Part shown: positions 8,316 through 17,030 of the stretch, piece after piece
Layout: every line of letters begins with the position of its first letter
How positions within the stretch are numbered: the stretch's first letter is position 1
Virus record (IMG/VR): IMGVR_UViG_3300009285_000347
Coordinates: 1-28,283 of that record
Length of the DNA stretch: 28,283 bases
Direction: 5' to 3' (one strand)
Origin: a virus
The notes under the pieces: model-generated
The model's database searches: none
What the model was told of the DNA's origin: nothing
The model's input: only the letters and a program-made list of their open reading frames with translations
Made by a program: the position numbers and the translations under genes

Positions 8316-8598
8316 GGGGAAAAATAAATTTTATCCTACTGACGCCGAGAATAGCCTTTTTGATGCCCTCTTTCCAAGCTATGTGTCATTTTCTCAGACC
8401 ATACTTGATAAAATGAGAGATGGGGATTATGGCAAGATTCCTGAATACGAAAACGAACCACAAGAAAAAGAGAAACCGAGTACAGACGCCGATCTAAATA
8501 GGATGTATCAAAAAGGCGTTGAAGATGGTAAGGCGTATATCAAAAAAGGGCTTGAGCAATGCGATACGACTACCAGTGTGAAAGCTGTAACGATGTAA
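8314..8598 (+). CDS. Hypothetical protein (94 aa)
   Basis: This is a 94-residue acidic/polar protein with no recognised domain. Its start at 8314 (MGKNKFYPTD) follows the repeated stop/start junction TTTAGGTTTGAGTGAT, whose AGG would serve as a weak ribosome binding site. An upstream ATG at 8143 in the same frame would run across the previous gene and is not favoured. The middle is Glu/Lys/Pro-rich (YENEPQEKEKPSTD) and looks flexible, and the C-terminal part is helical (NRMYQKGVEDGKAYIKKGL). It overlaps the next gene by 40 bases in another frame. Confidence 0.6.
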   Translation: MGKNKFYPTDAENSLFDALFPSYVSFSQTILDKMRDGDYGKIPEYENEPQEKEKPSTDADLNRMYQKGVEDGKAYIKKGLEQCDTTTSVKAVTM

Positions 8599-9011
8599 CT
8601 GAGCATTGGATGCCATTCGAGGATCGGCATACTCCAAAAACATGCCCCATGTGCGGAGGCAAGTCTACCTATCAATTCCCAGTGTCGGCCACATTCCAAC
8701 CATTTGAGGCCTACTACGATGAGGCTCTTGGAATGGACGTGCGGGGTCGCAAGGAGAAGCGGGAGGTCTTGCGGGCGATGGGACGGGTAGAAGCTGGGGA
8801 CCGGCGAAACGGGGCGCGTAACATGGAAACGTCGCCCAATACCGTCATGGTGAAACCGCTTCCAGAGAAGGGCATCACTCTATCGGACATTCAACGGCGA
8901 GAGAACTTGAACCGTAAGGCGCTCGAATCGTTCGAGATCGGCGTTAGGGAAAAGGCAACGGGCAAGACGATCATGCCCAAGACAAGATTGGTGGATTTGC
9001 CAAATGCGTGA
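8559..9011 (+). CDS. FmdB-type zinc-ribbon protein
   Basis: The N-terminus of this 150-residue protein matches the FmdB/CxxC regulatory zinc ribbon: MRYDYQC-ESC with C7 and C10, an acidic-aromatic segment (TEHWMPFEDR), then CPMCGG with C29 and C32. Such ribbons open with M-x-Y-x-Y-x-C, which fixes the start at 8559 even though it lies 40 bases inside the previous gene. Residues 45-150 are helical and charged, with the segment LPEKGITLSDIQRRENLNRKA resembling a peptide linker. In phages this family sits near head genes and has no proven function. The call is for the domain, not for a role. Confidence 0.75.
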   Translation: MRYDYQCESCNDVTEHWMPFEDRHTPKTCPMCGGKSTYQFPVSATFQPFEAYYDEALGMDVRGRKEKREVLRAMGRVEAGDRRNGARNMETSPNTVMVKPLPEKGITLSDIQRRENLNRKALESFEIGVREKATGKTIMPKTRLVDLPNA

Positions 9012-10463: not shown

Positions 10464-11444
10464 ATGTCTGATACGATCATCAGCAGGACCTATCAGACGC
10501 TTCTCACCACGACCCATGAGACGTTTCTGTCCAGTGGGATGGTCCACGACAACATCTTTAACCAGTCCCGAACGATGCAGTGGTATCGCGAGGGTGGACG
10601 GCTGAAGATCGTGGACGGGGGGGAGCGCCTGCGGGAAGGCATCATGTACGGCACGAATAGCACGGCTGGATGGTACTCCGGCTACGGGCTACTCGACGTG
10701 ACGGCACAGGAAGGCAACACCATTGCGTCGTATTCCTGGAAGCAGGGATCGGTGAGCATCACCTACTCCGGCCTTGAACTTCGCAGCAACAAGGGCAAGG
10801 CCAAGATCGCTGATCTGGTGAACACCAAGCAGGTTCAGGCCGAGCTATCCATTGCGGACGTGATAGCTACGGGCATCTTCTCGGACGGCACGGGCACAGG
10901 AAGCCTCCAGTTGACCGGACTCCAGGCCATGTGCGAATCCACTCCTGGCACGACATCCTATGCCGGCGTGCCAACCGCGAATACTGCCTGGCGTAACCGG
11001 GCGCAGGCATCTGCCGGGGCTGCGGCTGTCAACCTTCTGCCTTACATGAGGACAATCTACAACTCGTGTTCTCAGGGCAAGGGAATGGCTGCGTCTACGG
11101 TGGACTTCATCGTCACCACGCAGACCGTGCATGAGGCGTTCGAGGCTCTGCACGTCTCCACGCTACGGTATTCTTCTGCTAAGGAAGGGGATCTGGGGTT
11201 TGGAAAGCTGATGTTTAAGGGCGCTGAAGTGGCCTGGGACCCCTACTGCACATCGGGGGCGATGTTCCTGCTCAACAGTAGGCACACGTCGCTGGTCGTG
11301 GAGCGGGATGCCAACCTGTCGATGGGGGCTGGCGGATTCCAGCGCCCCGTCAACCAGGACGGATTTGTCGCTCAGATTCTTTTCCAGGGCAACTTGGTGA
11401 CGAACAACCGGCGTAAGCAGGGCACGATCACCGGGATCACCTGA
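10464..11444 (+). CDS. Major capsid protein (HK97-fold type, probable)
   Basis: This is a 326-residue protein with AAGGAG upstream, following the scaffold gene by 20 bases. It has features of short HK97-fold capsid proteins: an N-terminal arm (MSDTIISRTYQTLL), an extended loop region around WKQGSVSITYSGLELRSNKG, a long spine helix near KAKIADLVNTKQVQAELSIAD, and a C-terminal part with a conserved FVAQILFQGNLVTNNRRKQG segment, the typical ending where the capsid surface strand closes. The gene is GC-rich and smooth in codon use, as expected for a highly expressed protein. No other gene in the window is a better candidate. Fold-level identity would need a structure prediction. Confidence 0.82.
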   Translation: MSDTIISRTYQTLLTTTHETFLSSGMVHDNIFNQSRTMQWYREGGRLKIVDGGERLREGIMYGTNSTAGWYSGYGLLDVTAQEGNTIASYSWKQGSVSITYSGLELRSNKGKAKIADLVNTKQVQAELSIADVIATGIFSDGTGTGSLQLTGLQAMCESTPGTTSYAGVPTANTAWRNRAQASAGAAAVNLLPYMRTIYNSCSQGKGMAASTVDFIVTTQTVHEAFEALHVSTLRYSSAKEGDLGFGKLMFKGAEVAWDPYCTSGAMFLLNSRHTSLVVERDANLSMGAGGFQRPVNQDGFVAQILFQGNLVTNNRRKQGTITGIT

Positions 11445-11462
11445 GAAAGGAGTCGTGACGAC

Positions 11463-11774
11463 ATGGCAAGTCTTACTCCGACGTATGACAAGGGCACTCC
11501 CGATTATTCTCGGGGCACAGTGTCAGGCACGTTCGCGACTACGAATAATGAGGGGTCTGGGAACGGTACAACCGCTGTAGATCAGATCGTACTGTTCCCC
11601 ACAAGCGTATACCTCACATCGTTCAATGCTTTCTGCCAGTCTGGGGCAGCGGCAGTGAGGGCACAGTGTAACGTCAATTCGGCAGGTACAGCCGTGAATG
11701 GGACCGTGCTGATCGAGACGAACACTGTGAGCGATGTGACTTTCCGGTTCAATGCCACTTTTATTGGAAGTTAG
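11463..11774 (+). CDS. Capsid-associated small beta-rich protein
   Basis: The protein has 103 residues and is rich in Thr, Ser, Ala and Val, with alternating hydrophobic strands (QIVLFPTSVYLTSFNAF, GTVLIETNTVSDVTFRF), predicted as a small beta sandwich. It has two isolated cysteines and no membrane segment. It follows the major capsid gene by 18 bases with AAAGGAG upstream, so it is probably made in large amounts. The position and fold type fit a head decoration or head-completion protein. No family is recognised. Confidence 0.6.
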   Translation: MASLTPTYDKGTPDYSRGTVSGTFATTNNEGSGNGTTAVDQIVLFPTSVYLTSFNAFCQSGAAAVRAQCNVNSAGTAVNGTVLIETNTVSDVTFRFNATFIGS

Positions 11775-11788
11775 GAGGTGTTTCAACC

Positions 11789-12277
11789 ATGCAGATGATG
11801 ACTCTTTCGAGGACAGAAGCTGAGAAAATCTTCATCGTGGTGGAAGCGTCTGACATCACAGACGACGTGGCTACCACAGGGCTGTACCCTGGTCAGGTGG
11901 CCGAGTGGGTGTCCACGACCACGACAGCCAAGTTGGGATATACCGTGCGGCGCGTCACCGCTGGATCGCTCAACACAACGAGCGGTCTGGCTGGAGCGAA
12001 GGTTGCTGGCGTCGTGGATACCACCATTGCCACAGGTGCGGTCGGTAGGCTCCAGGTGTTCGGACCCGCTACGGTACGGGCTTCTTCGAGCATTGACGCT
12101 GCGGGTATCGTGGTGGCCTACTCGATCAACGCCACCAACATTGGTGCCGTAGCCGCCGGAGTCACAACGACCCTGTGGTCCCCGGAATACCTCGGTGGCA
12201 TCGTGGGCTGGAAGTTCACGGCAGGCACAGGTGTCACCACGGCTACCCAGTGTACCGTGCAGCTCTACTTGCACTAA
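11789..12277 (+). CDS. Probable capsid decoration-like protein
   Basis: This 162-residue beta-rich protein has long runs of Ala/Gly/Thr/Val (VTAGSLNTTSGLAGAKVAGV, SSSIDAAGIVVAYSINATN). AGGAGGTG lies 9 bases before the ATG, the strongest Shine-Dalgarno site in the window, which suggests very high output, as for a capsid or decoration protein. The sequence carries a strand-rich C-terminus (GGIVGWKFTAGTGVTTATQC). It is the last gene before the sugar cassette. A frame on the opposite strand over the same bases has no protein-like character. The exact role is inferred. Confidence 0.6.
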   Translation: MQMMTLSRTEAEKIFIVVEASDITDDVATTGLYPGQVAEWVSTTTTAKLGYTVRRVTAGSLNTTSGLAGAKVAGVVDTTIATGAVGRLQVFGPATVRASSSIDAAGIVVAYSINATNIGAVAAGVTTTLWSPEYLGGIVGWKFTAGTGVTTATQCTVQLYLH

Positions 12278-12278
12278 A

Positions 12279-12295
12279 TGAGGGCGCGTCCCTCA
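12279..12295 (+). other. Small hairpin after the decoration-like gene
   Basis: TGAGGG (12279-12284) pairs with CCCTCA (12290-12295) around five bases, immediately after the stop of the upstream gene. No T-run follows, so it is not a classical terminator. It may stabilise the 3' end of the capsid messages. Confidence 0.4.
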
Positions 12296-12317
12296 CTGCC
12301 GGGGTTATGCTCAGGAA

Positions 12318-12363
12318 TTGAGCCTCCCGGTATGACCTCGGTAGCTTTTATAGGGAGGCTCAA
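12318..12363 (+). promoter_or_regulatory. Hairpin covering the ribosome binding site of the first glycosyltransferase
   Basis: TTGAGCCTCCC (12318-12328) is the exact reverse complement of GGGAGGCTCAA (12353-12363), giving an 11-bp perfect stem with a 24-nt loop that ends directly before the ATG at 12364. The 3' arm contains the GGGAGG Shine-Dalgarno site, so folding would hide it from the ribosome. This is the only strong stem at the junction of capsid genes and the sugar cassette. It could work as a thermometer-like or ligand-responsive element, or as a passive brake. Confidence 0.65.
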
Positions 12364-13146
12364 ATGATTAGCGTGGTAGCGTGTGTGAAAGATAGGGCGG
12401 AGAGCGTAAGGCTTTGGCTCGAAAGCCTGGCCCTCCAAACAAGGTCGGACCTCATCGAGATTGTTCTTGTTGATTACGGCAGCATCGACAATCTCGATGA
12501 GGTTATGAAAACCTCCCCTATAGGAGTCAACCTTTTCCGCGTGTCGATGCGCGAGGATGTCCCTGGGTTCCCGGAAGCATTCCTAAAGAACGTGGGGATA
12601 CGACGTGCGAGTTGCGATGTGATAGCCTGCACCAATGTTGATCTGGCATACGAGCCAAAGTTCTTCGAGAACATGGCTTCCAGGTGCGGCCCTGGAGTAC
12701 TTGTACAGGCTGTTCGTAAAGACACAAAGGAAGGATACAAGGTATCTGCGGATGGAGTCATCGAGCATAAGCCGCATGAGAAAATCAACATGGTCATAGA
12801 CTACCTTCCAGACTCAGGCCTTCCTATTGTGGCTGGGGCCGACTGCCAGATGATGACCAAGCAGGCATGGCATATTTTCCAGGGGTATGATGAGGATTTG
12901 TATGGTTGGGGGTCTCTGGACTCTGACCTTATGATGAGAGCATTGTTGTGGGGGATGGATCTCGTTATTGTCGGACACAGACATGCGACTTATGTTCACA
13001 GATGGCACGAGCAGAACCTCGAAAAGAACATGGCAGATGTAGATAGGAACCACCCGATCATCATGGGTAAGCGAGGGTGTGGGACTATCAAGCGTAATCG
13101 CCCCGACTGGGGAGGATATTCAAACAGGGAGGCTCAAGGTGTCTGA
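12364..13146 (+). CDS. Glycosyltransferase, GT-A fold (family 2-like)
   Basis: This 260-residue protein has the GT-A layout: an N-terminal strand MISVVACVKDRAESV, the nucleotide-sugar pocket VDYGS (36-40), an NVD triad at 91-93 where GT-A enzymes carry the metal-binding DxD, and the acceptor-side segment YDEDLYGWGSLDSDLMMR (175-192), typical of the galactosyltransferase/GalNAc-transferase C-terminal region. The donor sugar is not predictable. It is the first gene of the cassette, and its own ribosome binding site lies in the hairpin stem at 12318-12363. It overlaps the next gene by 8 bases. A short single-domain form like this is common in phages. Confidence 0.85.
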   Translation: MISVVACVKDRAESVRLWLESLALQTRSDLIEIVLVDYGSIDNLDEVMKTSPIGVNLFRVSMREDVPGFPEAFLKNVGIRRASCDVIACTNVDLAYEPKFFENMASRCGPGVLVQAVRKDTKEGYKVSADGVIEHKPHEKINMVIDYLPDSGLPIVAGADCQMMTKQAWHIFQGYDEDLYGWGSLDSDLMMRALLWGMDLVIVGHRHATYVHRWHEQNLEKNMADVDRNHPIIMGKRGCGTIKRNRPDWGGYSNREAQGV

Positions 13147-14176
13147 TAGGACTTTCGAGATACCGGATGGATCAAAGGTGCTCATCGGCACTCCGAATTA
13201 CACCAACTTGTTCTCATCCGAGGTTCACGCCAACCATGTTGAATGCGTCACGAAATGGAAGGAATGGGGCATAGACTTCAACTGGATGATCATCGGCAGA
13301 ACGTTCGTGCATTTTGCACGGAGTCAGGCGTGTCGTGCAGCCGTGAATGGCGGATTCACCCACATCTTTTGGCTAGACGACGACGCCATCATTGACCCGA
13401 TTCTTCTACCCATATTTCTTGAGCATGACAAGGATGTGGTTATTGCGCCCTACCCTATGCGCAGGGCTCCTTTTCAAATCGGTATCCTATCGGCTCGGGT
13501 GTTCCGATGCCGAGAGTGTGACCACTGGACCCACTGGAAGGAAGATTGCCAGCCGCCGTCATTCGCGTCGTGCGAGAAATGCGGGAAGGAAATCCCGAGG
13601 GATTTCCATGAGCACGTTGCATATCGGAATATGACCTCTGCTGATTTGGGAAAGGGGCTTATCGAGGTGGATGGTGGGGGGACGCACGCGATGCTAATCA
13701 AAACGAGCGTGCTAACAAAGTCTCGTGGATTTCCACCTCCCGGTACAGGGGAACTTGTCCCGGAGAATAGGTCCTACCCGGATCGGGCATATGCCGTCTA
13801 CATGAAGCTCAAGGACATGACGGAGAGCGAAGATCGGGATCTGGTAGACCATTATATCGGGGATCTGCCGGATCAAAGTGCGACAATGCAGGAAGAAGAT
13901 GCTAGGGATAAGCCCTACGTCACGATGCCGAAGCAGGGCACGGAAGACATGCTGCTTTGCTATCGGCTGAAGTGCAAAGGCGTCAAGATTTACTGTGATA
14001 CCGATGTCTTTGCCGATCATGTGGGGTTTGCGCCAGTCATCGGACTTAACTTCGTTCAGCAGATGGAGGCATTACGCAACAATCCAGATCCTGAGCAGAT
14101 CGTGTTCGCTGCTCCTGGGCTTCACGCCCGAGATTGGGGGTTGATGCGGAAGGATGCTAGGGCTTCCCTGACATGA
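13139..14176 (+). CDS. Glycosyltransferase with inserted zinc ribbon
   Basis: The protein has 345 residues when started at GTG 13139, which has GGGAGG 7 bases upstream; an ATG at 13079 in the same frame lies well inside the previous gene and lacks such a site. The pattern VLIGTPNYTNLFSSEVH (14-30), then FARSQ (59-63) and IFWLDDDAI (77-85) with the DDD metal site, matches a phage glycosyltransferase family. After the nucleotide-binding half comes an insertion with C124-x2-C127 and C145-x2-C148 (CREC ... CEKCG), a zinc ribbon. The catalytic half resumes with VDGGGTHAML (177-186). The end is a helical region. The ribbon may bind the acceptor protein, but this is a guess. Confidence 0.8.
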   Translation: MSDRTFEIPDGSKVLIGTPNYTNLFSSEVHANHVECVTKWKEWGIDFNWMIIGRTFVHFARSQACRAAVNGGFTHIFWLDDDAIIDPILLPIFLEHDKDVVIAPYPMRRAPFQIGILSARVFRCRECDHWTHWKEDCQPPSFASCEKCGKEIPRDFHEHVAYRNMTSADLGKGLIEVDGGGTHAMLIKTSVLTKSRGFPPPGTGELVPENRSYPDRAYAVYMKLKDMTESEDRDLVDHYIGDLPDQSATMQEEDARDKPYVTMPKQGTEDMLLCYRLKCKGVKIYCDTDVFADHVGFAPVIGLNFVQQMEALRNNPDPEQIVFAAPGLHARDWGLMRKDARASLT

Positions 14177-14481
14177 GAGTCTACCAGTGCGCTACAAATG
14201 GATGCGGCAAGGGCCTTATAACGGAGTTTCAGCCGTGGGGATTCTGCCCAAAGTGCGGTGGGCGGAATTGGAGAAAGCTCCGAAAGGCTACGCACTGGAT
14301 GACTCTGCGTATCTGGTGGATGTCTGGTAGGCAGTTGGTTGTACCACCAGAGGGGTCTATGCTTGAGCGATTCCTGCTGAAACGAATGAATGATCAGGCT
14401 GAGAATGTTCGTATCACGGAGAATGATGTAAGGCAACAAGTTCCGCAGAACCTTACAAAGGGAGGCTCACGTGTCAGATAA
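14173..14481 (+). CDS. Zinc-ribbon protein in the sugar cassette
   Basis: The N-terminus of this 102-residue protein is a zinc ribbon: MRVYQCATNGC (C6, C11) followed by GFCPKCGG (C25, C28). The rest is basic and helical with Trp residues (WMTLRIWWMSGRQL). Its ATG overlaps the glycosyltransferase stop (ATGA), and its end overlaps the next gene by 11 bases. The C-terminal codons also encode the GGAGG ribosome binding site of that gene. The tight overlaps on both sides suggest it works with the cassette enzymes. No family is recognised beyond the ribbon. Confidence 0.65.
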   Translation: MRVYQCATNGCGKGLITEFQPWGFCPKCGGRNWRKLRKATHWMTLRIWWMSGRQLVVPPEGSMLERFLLKRMNDQAENVRITENDVRQQVPQNLTKGGSRVR

Positions 14482-15292
14482 GGTCCAAGGTAAGACAGAC
14501 TGGCCACCGGCATTGATCACGTCCACGAAGTTTCCTATCCAATTTTATGTGGATAGCATCGACAACCCAGATCATCAAATCCCTGATGAGAAGCGCGCTA
14601 AATGTCCGTGGGCTGTGCTCGAAGGGGATCAGGCCAATGGTAGGCTGCTATATTTGGCTGGTGGGGTGAGCCAGAAAGGGCCGTTTGTTGTTGATGTGGG
14701 ATGGCCTGGTAAGTTTCGAGTTCAGCCTGACATGTCTAGTATTGATGAGGGGGCCTGTGATCTAATCTATGGCATTGTTCGCGCTACTCGGCCTTCCATC
14801 GTGCTTGAGACTGGGACGCATAAGGGTCGTAGCACTCATGCTATCACATCGGCGTTGTGTGAAAATGAAAAGGGATCGATCTTCACGCTTGATTGCGTGA
14901 AGTGGGTTGATCTGAATGACATTCTTAGCCCTGGGGAATGTGGACGATGCACGCAGTTAATAGGGCATAGCCCGCAGGCCTTCAACATCCACCCTCTCGC
15001 TGGATTGCAGGGTATCGACTTCGCCTTCTTAGACGGTGCACATGACGGTGAAACCCTGCTCAAGGAGATAGAATACGTAGACACGCATCGGGCAGATACT
15101 TGCATAGTCTGCGTAGACAACACGATGGATGCGGGTTGGCCGGAGATTAGAAAAGTGCTCGACACGCTTACACACAAGGGACATGTTGTTCTTGAGACAA
15201 TGGCTGGCATGGACATCATTACGTTGCGTAATGTGGACCCTAAAGTTATGGAAGGCGCTACGTTTCATGTCGATGTAGGGGGTGCGACATGA
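14471..15292 (+). CDS. SAM-dependent methyltransferase (Methyltransf_24/cephalosporin-hydroxylase-like), first copy
   Basis: This is a 273-residue class I methyltransferase-fold protein. Motif I is VLETGTHKGRST (111-122), the SAM-binding glycine loop of this family. IFTLDC supplies the acidic residue after strand 2, and IDFAFLDGAHDGE gives the DG-x-H motif after strand 4, with VDNT further on. Family members O-methylate sugars or act in polyketide or macrolide pathways, so a sugar substrate is plausible here. The start is GTG 14471 with GGGAGG 5 bases upstream, in a leader nearly identical to that of the second glycosyltransferase. The next gene, a diverged copy, overlaps by 4 bases. Confidence 0.75.
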   Translation: MSDKVQGKTDWPPALITSTKFPIQFYVDSIDNPDHQIPDEKRAKCPWAVLEGDQANGRLLYLAGGVSQKGPFVVDVGWPGKFRVQPDMSSIDEGACDLIYGIVRATRPSIVLETGTHKGRSTHAITSALCENEKGSIFTLDCVKWVDLNDILSPGECGRCTQLIGHSPQAFNIHPLAGLQGIDFAFLDGAHDGETLLKEIEYVDTHRADTCIVCVDNTMDAGWPEIRKVLDTLTHKGHVVLETMAGMDIITLRNVDPKVMEGATFHVDVGGAT

Positions 15293-15990
15293 ATTTCACC
15301 CCTGAAGATGTTGAGGTTATGAAGGAATATGCCAATCTCAAGATGGAATCACCCACGACTAGCGTGCATTTCCATTACATCATAGAACCAAAGGAACCAT
15401 ATTCACATGGGCAGATCGTTGAATTGGTGATGATTTCGGAATCTCCCGATGGAGCGTTGACCGACCTTACATTTCCAGACAGGATGAGATTCGCCGTCAA
15501 TCTATGGGCCTGTGATGAGCAGACAGCTGGGTTCATATGCTGGCTAGTGCGGACGTGGAAACCGCTCGTGTGTTTCGAGACTGGAACAAATAAGGGCAGG
15601 AGCACTAAGGCCATTGCTGACTCTCTTGAACTAAACGGCAAAGGACACATTACCACGGTAGATGTGGCGAATCATGGAGTTCAAGATAGGTTGCCACGCA
15701 CCACGTTTATTCAGGGCCGCTTGCCTGAAGGTCTCAAGATGGAACCACTAGCTTCACTTTCTGACATCGACTTCGCTTTCCTGGATGGCCCACATTACGA
15801 AAACGAAGTGTTGCAAGAACTAGAGTTCGTGAAGGCACGCAAGGCGAAACGTGGTTGTTACGTGCTATTTGATGATGCCGGTAACGGTAGTTGGCCCGGT
15901 GTATGTAAGGCTGTAAAGGAACTTCCTGGAGCGTTTATCCTTCCGACTCCACACGGGCTAGGGATTGTGCATCTGGATGCCGAGAAATGA
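15289..15990 (+). CDS. SAM-dependent methyltransferase, second copy
   Basis: This 233-residue protein shows the same blocks as its upstream neighbour: VCFETGTNKGRST (94-106) for SAM binding, ITTVDVAN, IDFAFLDGPHYENEVLQELE, and LFDDAGNGSWPGVCK near the C-terminus. The two are a tandem duplication that has diverged, mainly outside the motifs. It starts in an ATGA overlap with the first copy and ends in an ATGA overlap with the epimerase. Two related enzymes in tandem may methylate different positions of one sugar or two different sugars. The substrate is not known. Confidence 0.75.
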   Translation: MNFTPEDVEVMKEYANLKMESPTTSVHFHYIIEPKEPYSHGQIVELVMISESPDGALTDLTFPDRMRFAVNLWACDEQTAGFICWLVRTWKPLVCFETGTNKGRSTKAIADSLELNGKGHITTVDVANHGVQDRLPRTTFIQGRLPEGLKMEPLASLSDIDFAFLDGPHYENEVLQELEFVKARKAKRGCYVLFDDAGNGSWPGVCKAVKELPGAFILPTPHGLGIVHLDAEK

Positions 15991-17030
15991 AAGTCCTGGT
16001 CACGGGTGGCCTGGGATTCATCGGCGTGAACACTGCCGCGCATTTTAATGGCCTGGGCCATGATGTGTCCGTGATAGACAACTACCACCGGGCGGGGGTT
16101 GATGCCAATGAGGAATGGTTGCGCCTGGTCGCCCCGGAGGTCAAGATCAGGACCCTTGACATTCGACAGGCCTACCCGTTGAAGCAGTATATCGCCCGTA
16201 GCCACTTCGACCTAATCGTCCACGAGGCTGCTCAGACAGCCGTGACGACCTCAGTTGAAGACCCCGCCTATGACTTCGCTACAAACGCGCACGGAACATT
16301 CAACATCATGGAAGCGGCTCGTGACTCTGGATGTGCCGTGATCTACGCAAGCACGAACAAAGTTTATGGGGCAATGTCGTCAATTGAAACGTGGGAAGAT
16401 GAGGCTCGGTGGAAGTACTCTGATTGGACGTTACACATGAACGGAATTGACGAGACTGCTCCCCTTGACCCTATCTCTCCGTATGGGTGTTCTAAGCTCG
16501 CGGGCGAGCACTACGTCAAGGACTATGCGAGAATCTACGGTGTCAAGACCGTTATATTCAGGCAGTCCTGCATCTACGGACCGAGACAGATTGGGGGGAC
16601 CGATCAGGGATGGCTAACGTGGTTCACGAGAGCATGGGTTACTGGCAAGCCAATCACGATTTTCGGTGATGGTAAGCAAGTCCGGGATGTGCTTTACATC
16701 GAGGATTTAATCCAGGCTTATATCCTGGCAATAGCAAACATCGACAAAATTTCGGGAGAAGTGTTCAACATCGGTGGAGGCTCTGCGAACTCAACTTCAA
16801 TCTGGTGGGAGTTGAAGAAGATCATGGCTGATACCGTAGGGGAGCCTACTCCGAGAGTTACATTTTCAGAGTGGAGGCCCGGAGATCAGAAGATCCATGT
16901 TACAGACAATCGAAAGCTAAAGACTATCCTCGGATGGGAGCCGACGATTGGGATAGAAAAAGGCATACAGAACCTGCATTCATGGATCATTGGTGCAACC
17001 GCGAACAAGCAGATCAGGGCATCCGCATAA
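15987..17030 (+). CDS. NAD-dependent sugar epimerase/dehydratase (CDP-tyvelose-2-epimerase-like)
   Basis: This is a 347-residue extended SDR enzyme. TGGLGFIG (6-13) is the Rossmann NAD-binding loop, ASTNKVYG (121-128) carries the catalytic Thr/Ser region, and YGCSK (166-170) is the Y-x-x-x-K active site. The TNKVYG block, DYARIYG..TVIFRQSCIYGPRQ, DQGWLTWF and GDGKQVRDVLYIEDLIQAY resemble bacterial CDP-paratose 2-epimerase (Tyv/RfbE), which makes CDP-tyvelose for O-antigen. By this resemblance it may epimerise a deoxyhexose nucleotide, although no other step of that pathway is in the window, so it would rely on host CDP-sugars or act on a different substrate. It closes the cassette. Confidence 0.85.
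   Translation: MKVLVTGGLGFIGVNTAAHFNGLGHDVSVIDNYHRAGVDANEEWLRLVAPEVKIRTLDIRQAYPLKQYIARSHFDLIVHEAAQTAVTTSVEDPAYDFATNAHGTFNIMEAARDSGCAVIYASTNKVYGAMSSIETWEDEARWKYSDWTLHMNGIDETAPLDPISPYGCSKLAGEHYVKDYARIYGVKTVIFRQSCIYGPRQIGGTDQGWLTWFTRAWVTGKPITIFGDGKQVRDVLYIEDLIQAYILAIANIDKISGEVFNIGGGSANSTSIWWELKKIMADTVGEPTPRVTFSEWRPGDQKIHVTDNRKLKTILGWEPTIGIEKGIQNLHSWIIGATANKQIRASA

Follow-up and report, generated by a model that had tools for sequence, protein, structure and literature searches.

Why should a phage keep a set of sugar- and methyl-transferring enzymes among its head genes, and what would these enzymes act on? The question is raised by a viral contig of 28,283 bases from IMG/VR (IMGVR_UViG_3300009285_000347), referred to over its whole length as the window, which is classed as linear and is probably a fragment of a larger genome. 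Its late genes (terminase, portal, major capsid protein (MCP) and neck) match those of the Myxococcus phage Mx8 family, with an MCP identity of 27-33%. The phage is a tailed one, and the metagenome numbers of its relatives, together with the gene context, lead us to presume a marine origin. An earlier note on this DNA had placed two glycosyltransferases (GT1 and GT2), a zinc ribbon, two S-adenosylmethionine (SAM) methyltransferases (MT1 and MT2) and a Tyv-like epimerase between capsid-decoration and neck genes, tied together by overlapping starts and stops. All six open reading frames (ORFs) are indeed present there on the same strand, at 12364-17030, with the decoration gene g11789 upstream and small head/neck genes downstream. 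The overlaps are borne out as well: in cassette order they measure 8 bp (GT1/GT2), 4, 11, 4 and 4 bp, and the gene after the epimerase begins 12 bp downstream of its end. A chance arrangement is excluded because of synteny with many relatives. We consider it rather likely that the phage uses the cassette to glycosylate its own capsid decoration protein, the glycan of the window being methylated and epimerised; acceptor, sugar, order of steps and role are what we infer. To our knowledge, glycosylation of the phage's own particles has been described for few phages, with no clear benefit outside animals.

In order to see how constant this arrangement is, relatives were sampled by a scan with an MCP profile, independently of the cassette, which gave 50 distinct clusters, 39 of them spanning MCP to neck. 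Single-sequence scans with MCP and with MT2 gave no matches; the profiles did find relatives. A GT-A gene lies downstream of g11789 and before the neck genes in 36 of the 39 spanning loci, and the three loci lacking it are among the most divergent MCP matches (38-41% identity). Two cassette types can be distinguished. Type A (21 loci) consists of GT2 with or without the zinc ribbon, one or more methyltransferases (often Methyltransf_24), GT1, and a short-chain dehydrogenase/reductase (SDR) enzyme or sulfotransferases. In type B (15 loci) a divergent GT-A gene is followed by a family-2 glycosyltransferase, often fused to Methyltransf_11, and then by a CgeB-like GT-B enzyme. GT2 is the near-invariant core, methyltransferases and zinc ribbons are common, and GT1 and the epimerase are rare, so the six-gene cassette of the window is among the fullest and is not typical. 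The earlier note had spoken of one unit and had proposed a search for the same gene order in relatives. The six genes do overlap and the slot does hold a GT-A gene, but the set of six is not constant, types A and B alternate, and no fixed unit extends across the relatives.

Accessory partners in the other loci are all of glycan type (glycosyltransferase-methyltransferase fusion, CgeB-like GT-B, sulfotransferase). A representative fusion gene lies at 10840-12117 of locus L078, with counterparts in its relatives. Sulfotransferase-like genes are found in the slot of L027 (9273-9950, Sulfotransfer_3, 1.9e-9) and, as weaker matches, of L053 (6905-7588 and 7576-8274), and some relatives may thus sulfate their coat. 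The MCP profile also matched two contigs of metagenome-assembled genomes; in the one inspected (L132), the stretch from MCP to the neck genes holds no gene of the size of a glycosyltransferase. Likewise, no glycosyltransferase is annotated in the slot of Mx8, BUCT555 or other cultured relatives.

The main evidence for the decoration protein as the partner of these enzymes comes from the way in which cassette types are distributed over the trees of MCP and six other neighbouring genes. On the tree of g11789 the A/B label changes only once, at a split with an SH-aLRT support of 99. It changes five times on the MCP tree (all five forced by starred branches), seven times on the portal tree (five forced; five changes with four rows left out), five times on the g18192 tree, four times on each of the g17403 and g9385 trees, and seven times on the g11463 tree (two forced). 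A single type-B clade is rejected on both the MCP and the portal tree (AU p 6e-92 and 3e-99, respectively). With a single change for g11789 versus five for MCP and five to seven for portal, these trees show that g11789 and the enzymes move together as one unit. The window itself illustrates this. Locus L057 is its sister in the MCP tree and its nearest row in the portal tree, and both the cassette and the decoration protein of L057 are of type B; the window's own g11789 and GT2 are nearest to those of L111 (0.74-0.77 of the self score), a locus with an MCP identity of only 44%. The earlier note had regarded the target as unknown; since the moving unit includes g11789, this protein is now the candidate.

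Pairwise distances point in the same direction. Those of g11789 and GT2 are correlated (rank r 0.80), also after removal of the contributions of MCP, g17403 and g18192 (partial Mantel r 0.76, p 0.0002), and much of this correlation is the A/B split. For MCP and g17403, the genes flanking the module, r is 0.83. Within type A, the nearest neighbours of g11789 and GT2 agree in 10 of 22 loci, with about one expected.

It might be argued that the enzymes glycosylate another part of the virion (tail, fibre or the major capsid protein), and that g11789 travels with them by adjacency only. A leader of about 90 bases is all that parts the decoration gene from the cassette, and remote GT2-like genes are also found elsewhere, that of L054 behind large fibre-like genes. 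However, at least five switches have never separated g11789 from the glycosyltransferase, across a gap longer than that between g11463 and g11789, where breaks did occur. Moreover, once controlled for, the relation of MCP distance to GT2 is only weak (partial r 0.21 for all loci, 0.14 for type B). We therefore regard another virion target as unlikely, if still worth keeping in mind.

The structure predicted for g11789 fits the role of an exterior acceptor. The gene order is MCP, g11463, g11789, and the AlphaFold model of g11789 (pLDDT 82) has its best PDB matches, at Z 9-12, among outer capsid proteins of HFTV1, FCWL1, XM1, T1, TW1, Sf11 and Pam3 and the head-fibre base gp8.5 of phi29. From this decoration-type fold and the place near the MCP gene, g11789 is predicted to be an exterior phage capsid decoration protein, and because its model matches outer capsid proteins, an exterior acceptor beside its own enzymes is plausible. 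In the type-A decoration proteins, N-x-S/T sites at shared positions are 2.2 times as frequent as in shuffled sequences (67 vs 30). Because of the common descent of these proteins, and of a similar excess in the neighbouring g11463, we did not use it as evidence of Asn-glycosylation.

Several points weigh against glycosylation of the decoration protein. Within type A, the partial correlation between g11789 and GT2 is weak (r 0.18, p 0.10). As g11789 adjoins the cassette, linkage alone is a possible cause of the co-transfer; g11463, which is about as close to g11789 on the opposite side, does not follow the cassette type. GT2, the core enzyme, has no meaningful PDB sequence match and no characterised sequence relative. 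Finally, the system is known here from the genes of a 28 kb fragment, and the donor pathways are presumed ones of the host.

Table 1. Positions of the decoration gene, the leader and the six cassette genes in the window
Feature	Position	Strand	Description
g11789	11789..12277	+	predicted exterior capsid decoration protein; proposed glycan acceptor and first gene of the proposed exchangeable module
leader	12278..12363	+	between decoration gene and cassette; attenuator-like hairpin
GT1	12364..13146	+	GT-A glycosyltransferase, family-2 type; accessory, rare
GT2	13139..14176	+	predicted core GT-A glycosyltransferase with internal zinc-ribbon insert
zinc ribbon	14173..14481	+	small zinc-ribbon protein; usually directly 3' of GT2
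MT1	14471..15292	+	class I SAM O-methyltransferase, Methyltransf_24
MT2	15289..15990	+	second Methyltransf_24 enzyme
epimerase	15987..17030	+	NDP-sugar 2-epimerase, CDP-tyvelose 2-epimerase type

What, then, could the individual enzymes do? Their identities largely agree with the earlier note. GT1 is recognised by Pfam (Glycos_transf_2, 1.7e-8; Glyco_transf_7C, 1.9e-6), its C-terminal part being galactosyltransferase-like, and was seen in only three other distinct loci. GT2, whose start is most likely the GTG at 13139, behind a strong ribosome site (GGGAGGCTCA), rather than 13079, has no glycosyltransferase match in Pfam, PHROGs or NCBIfam, and a profile search gave no relative in bacterial genomes. 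Judged by its AlphaFold model (pLDDT 84, pTM 0.84) and invariant motifs, it is a glycosyltransferase of the GT-A fold. The nearest solved structure is that of STIV A197 (Z 18.2, rmsd 2.4, 172 residues, 18% identity), and further matches include human LH3 (Z 17.6), mimivirus R699 (15.5), yeast Mnn9 (14.8) and also COLGALT1; families missing from these lists were not taken as excluded. LH3 and COLGALT1 are protein glycosyltransferases. The motifs TPNY, FVxFAR, DDD and GTEDM are invariant in 23 sequences; D78-D79-D80 corresponds to the DxD metal/donor motif and GTEDM 265-269 to the acidic catalytic motif (numbering of 13145-14176). Remote GT2-like genes outside the slot were noticed in L054 (9797-10555), L012 (7791-8582) and L055 (2361-3011).

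GT2 of the window and of several relatives carries a zinc-ribbon insert (the Cys residues of CRECDH...CEKCG), and the separate zinc ribbon is confirmed by C6, C11, C25 and C28, which are invariant in 12 relatives; this small protein is a possible adaptor for GT2 or for the acceptor. A zinc ribbon in GT2 might also suit a DNA-directed enzyme, as phage glycosyltransferases often act on DNA, and glycosylation of hypermodified phage DNA in the manner of T-even phages has thus to be weighed. We hold it to be very improbable. Among the genes recognised in the window (itself a fragment) none is base-hydroxylating or thymidylate-synthase-like, the cassette sits between decoration and neck genes, and methyltransferase, epimerase and sulfotransferase partners suit a protein or polysaccharide glycan better.

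Both methyltransferases match Pfam Methyltransf_24 (MT1, 4e-10 and 40.9 bits; MT2, 4e-12 and 47.6 bits; gathering score 26.3), and they are 30% identical to each other. With the profile, the SAM motif and the metal-type acidic residues all present (ETGTHKGRS, DGAH and VDN in MT1; ETGTNKGRS, DGPH and FDD in MT2), they are by sequence Methyltransf_24 O-methyltransferases with a putative sugar acceptor.

The epimerase (Pfam match 2e-54) was rightly called Tyv-like. Its best matches among SDR enzymes are the CDP-tyvelose 2-epimerases 9rl0 (1.1e-78) and 1orr (3.1e-75), the next-best family following at 2e-38, about 37 orders of magnitude in E-value behind. In the characterised enzyme TaTyvE, the TNK segment, a Tyr and a Lys are essential or catalytic, and a Gln loop is described (PMC13098431). 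The window protein shares with TaTyvE and StTyvE TNK (123-125), the Tyr and Lys (Y166/K170) and the DQGW loop, and differs from them in having VTT in place of the VAM segment. This does not mean that tyvelose is made: the epimerase by itself cannot make it, and no CDP-paratose pathway genes were recognised among the ORFs of the window, a partial contig without an identified host. TaTyvE is active on all nucleoside diphosphate (NDP)-glucoses tested, converting NDP-glucose to NDP-mannose (PMC7851689), and a tyvelose product is therefore not implied; that the window enzyme edits a hexose of the host is just as probable. Of the methylated unusual sugar on capsid or fibres that the earlier note had envisaged, a virion-directed methylated glycan is the best supported reading. 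L014 and L032 also encode SDR enzymes, which, with identities to the window epimerase of only 34% and 25%, look like separate acquisitions.

O-antigen clusters, too, often contain epimerases and methyltransferases, and GT1 weakly matches a GtrB-like PHROG family (1e-5), so that conversion of the host surface or superinfection exclusion, in the style of gtr operons, might be proposed. We find this improbable. None of the six proteins has a transmembrane-like segment (maximal KD19 value 1.42), and hence the cassette has neither a membrane-anchored GtrB-type glycosyltransferase nor a GtrA flippase; no flippase-like gene is found among the six. Furthermore, the place of the cassette throughout the lineage is within the late head operon, and it is linked to the type of a capsid protein.

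Taking glycosylation of the decoration protein as the working explanation, the steps might be as follows. During late expression, soluble GT2 would take a sugar from a nucleotide-sugar donor of the host and attach it to g11789, and possibly to other head proteins, and GT1 would add a second sugar. The Tyv-type epimerase would convert a host NDP-hexose at C-2 (e.g. gluco to manno) and thus supply one of the donors, MT1 and MT2 would O-methylate and cap the glycan, and the zinc ribbons would aid recognition. By swapping the decoration gene and the enzymes together, relatives would change the chemistry of their coat (methyl, epimer, sulfate). Such a sugar coat may serve shielding or attachment.

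The leader behind g11789 may add a layer of control. A strong hairpin follows the g11789 stop and is itself followed by a CTTTTATA tail (fold z -2.2 vs dinucleotide shuffles); hairpins are found behind g11789 in most type-A relatives. The ribosome site already mentioned for GT2 (13127-13136) precedes GT1 and MT1 (14460-14469) in identical form, and the hairpin of the leader carries GAGCCTCCC, the complement of this common site. Of 97 cassette gene starts, 11 have the 8-mer GGAGGCTC, vs none of 834 other starts, and in all five loci using this 8-mer its complement GAGCCTCC lies once within the stretch just behind g11789. L014, L111, L029 and L017 have the same pair of motifs, and L027 a different one (AGCCCTC with GAGGGCT). 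Over all type-A loci the pairing is weak (p 0.015 vs structural genes, 0.045 vs swapped leaders), and a general rule for type A was not upheld; it is a feature of about six loci. The leader might be an attenuator that would reduce enzyme synthesis in relation to that of head proteins, and it may block the shared ribosome sites. It has no match in Rfam, and no excess of sigma-70 promoters was found.

Phage virion glycosylation is known as a principle. Mycobacteriophages Che8 (gp110), Corndog (gp38) and Myrna glycosylate their virions (Freeman 2023, cited in PMC12363180), and phage-encoded glycosyltransferases decorate the phages' own capsid and tail-tube proteins, which is the kind of system proposed here. 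However, tblastn with GT1, GT2 and MT1 against 50,697 phage records gave no match at 1e-5, no homology of the window's glycosyltransferases to known virion glycosyltransferases was found, and the window enzymes, unlike those of mycobacteriophages, lie in an anchored, exchangeable module with a decoration gene. The archaeal turreted virus STIV has a glycosylated capsid protein, and its A197, essential and the suspected enzyme (PMC10551542), is a soluble GT-A protein like GT2. It belongs to another virus group, and the cited part of that source mentions neither a methyltransferase nor an epimerase as its partner. In chlorovirus PBCV-1, viral glycosyltransferases and methyltransferases, A064R/A061L, build capsid glycans and cap them by O-methylation (PMC9614988). 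The type-B fusion repeats the domain logic of this pair; PBCV-1 is a eukaryotic giant virus with multi-domain enzymes, and the likeness is functional, with no homology to the window claimed. Mx8, BUCT555 and ppBjS10J-1 share the MCP family and late gene order of the window but lack an annotated glycosyltransferase, and their slot holds no such cassette. An anchored exchangeable module thus appears to be new in this lineage, and none was found in the sequenced phages searched.

A wider idea, which we offer tentatively, is that of a capsid glycotype locus, where a decoration protein and its private glycosylation set would recombine as one unit, so that surface chemistry (methyl, epimer, sulfate, branched GT-B types) would be exchanged as in bacterial O-antigen loci, with an RNA leader damping the enzymes via the shared ribosome site. 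Apart from that idea, a whole lineage known only from metagenomes appears to tie its glycosylation slot to one outer capsid protein and to vary the chemistry, including methylation and probable sulfation. It provides a concrete candidate acceptor and, in the window and L057, a natural pair with sister capsid genes and presumably different coats.

Two other genes of the window were noticed. An RNA ligase-like gene (1682-2338; PHROG 548, 2e-21) is found upstream of terminase and runs the other way, on the minus strand, and a second zinc-ribbon protein, FmdB-like (8559-9011), is conserved between portal and MCP.

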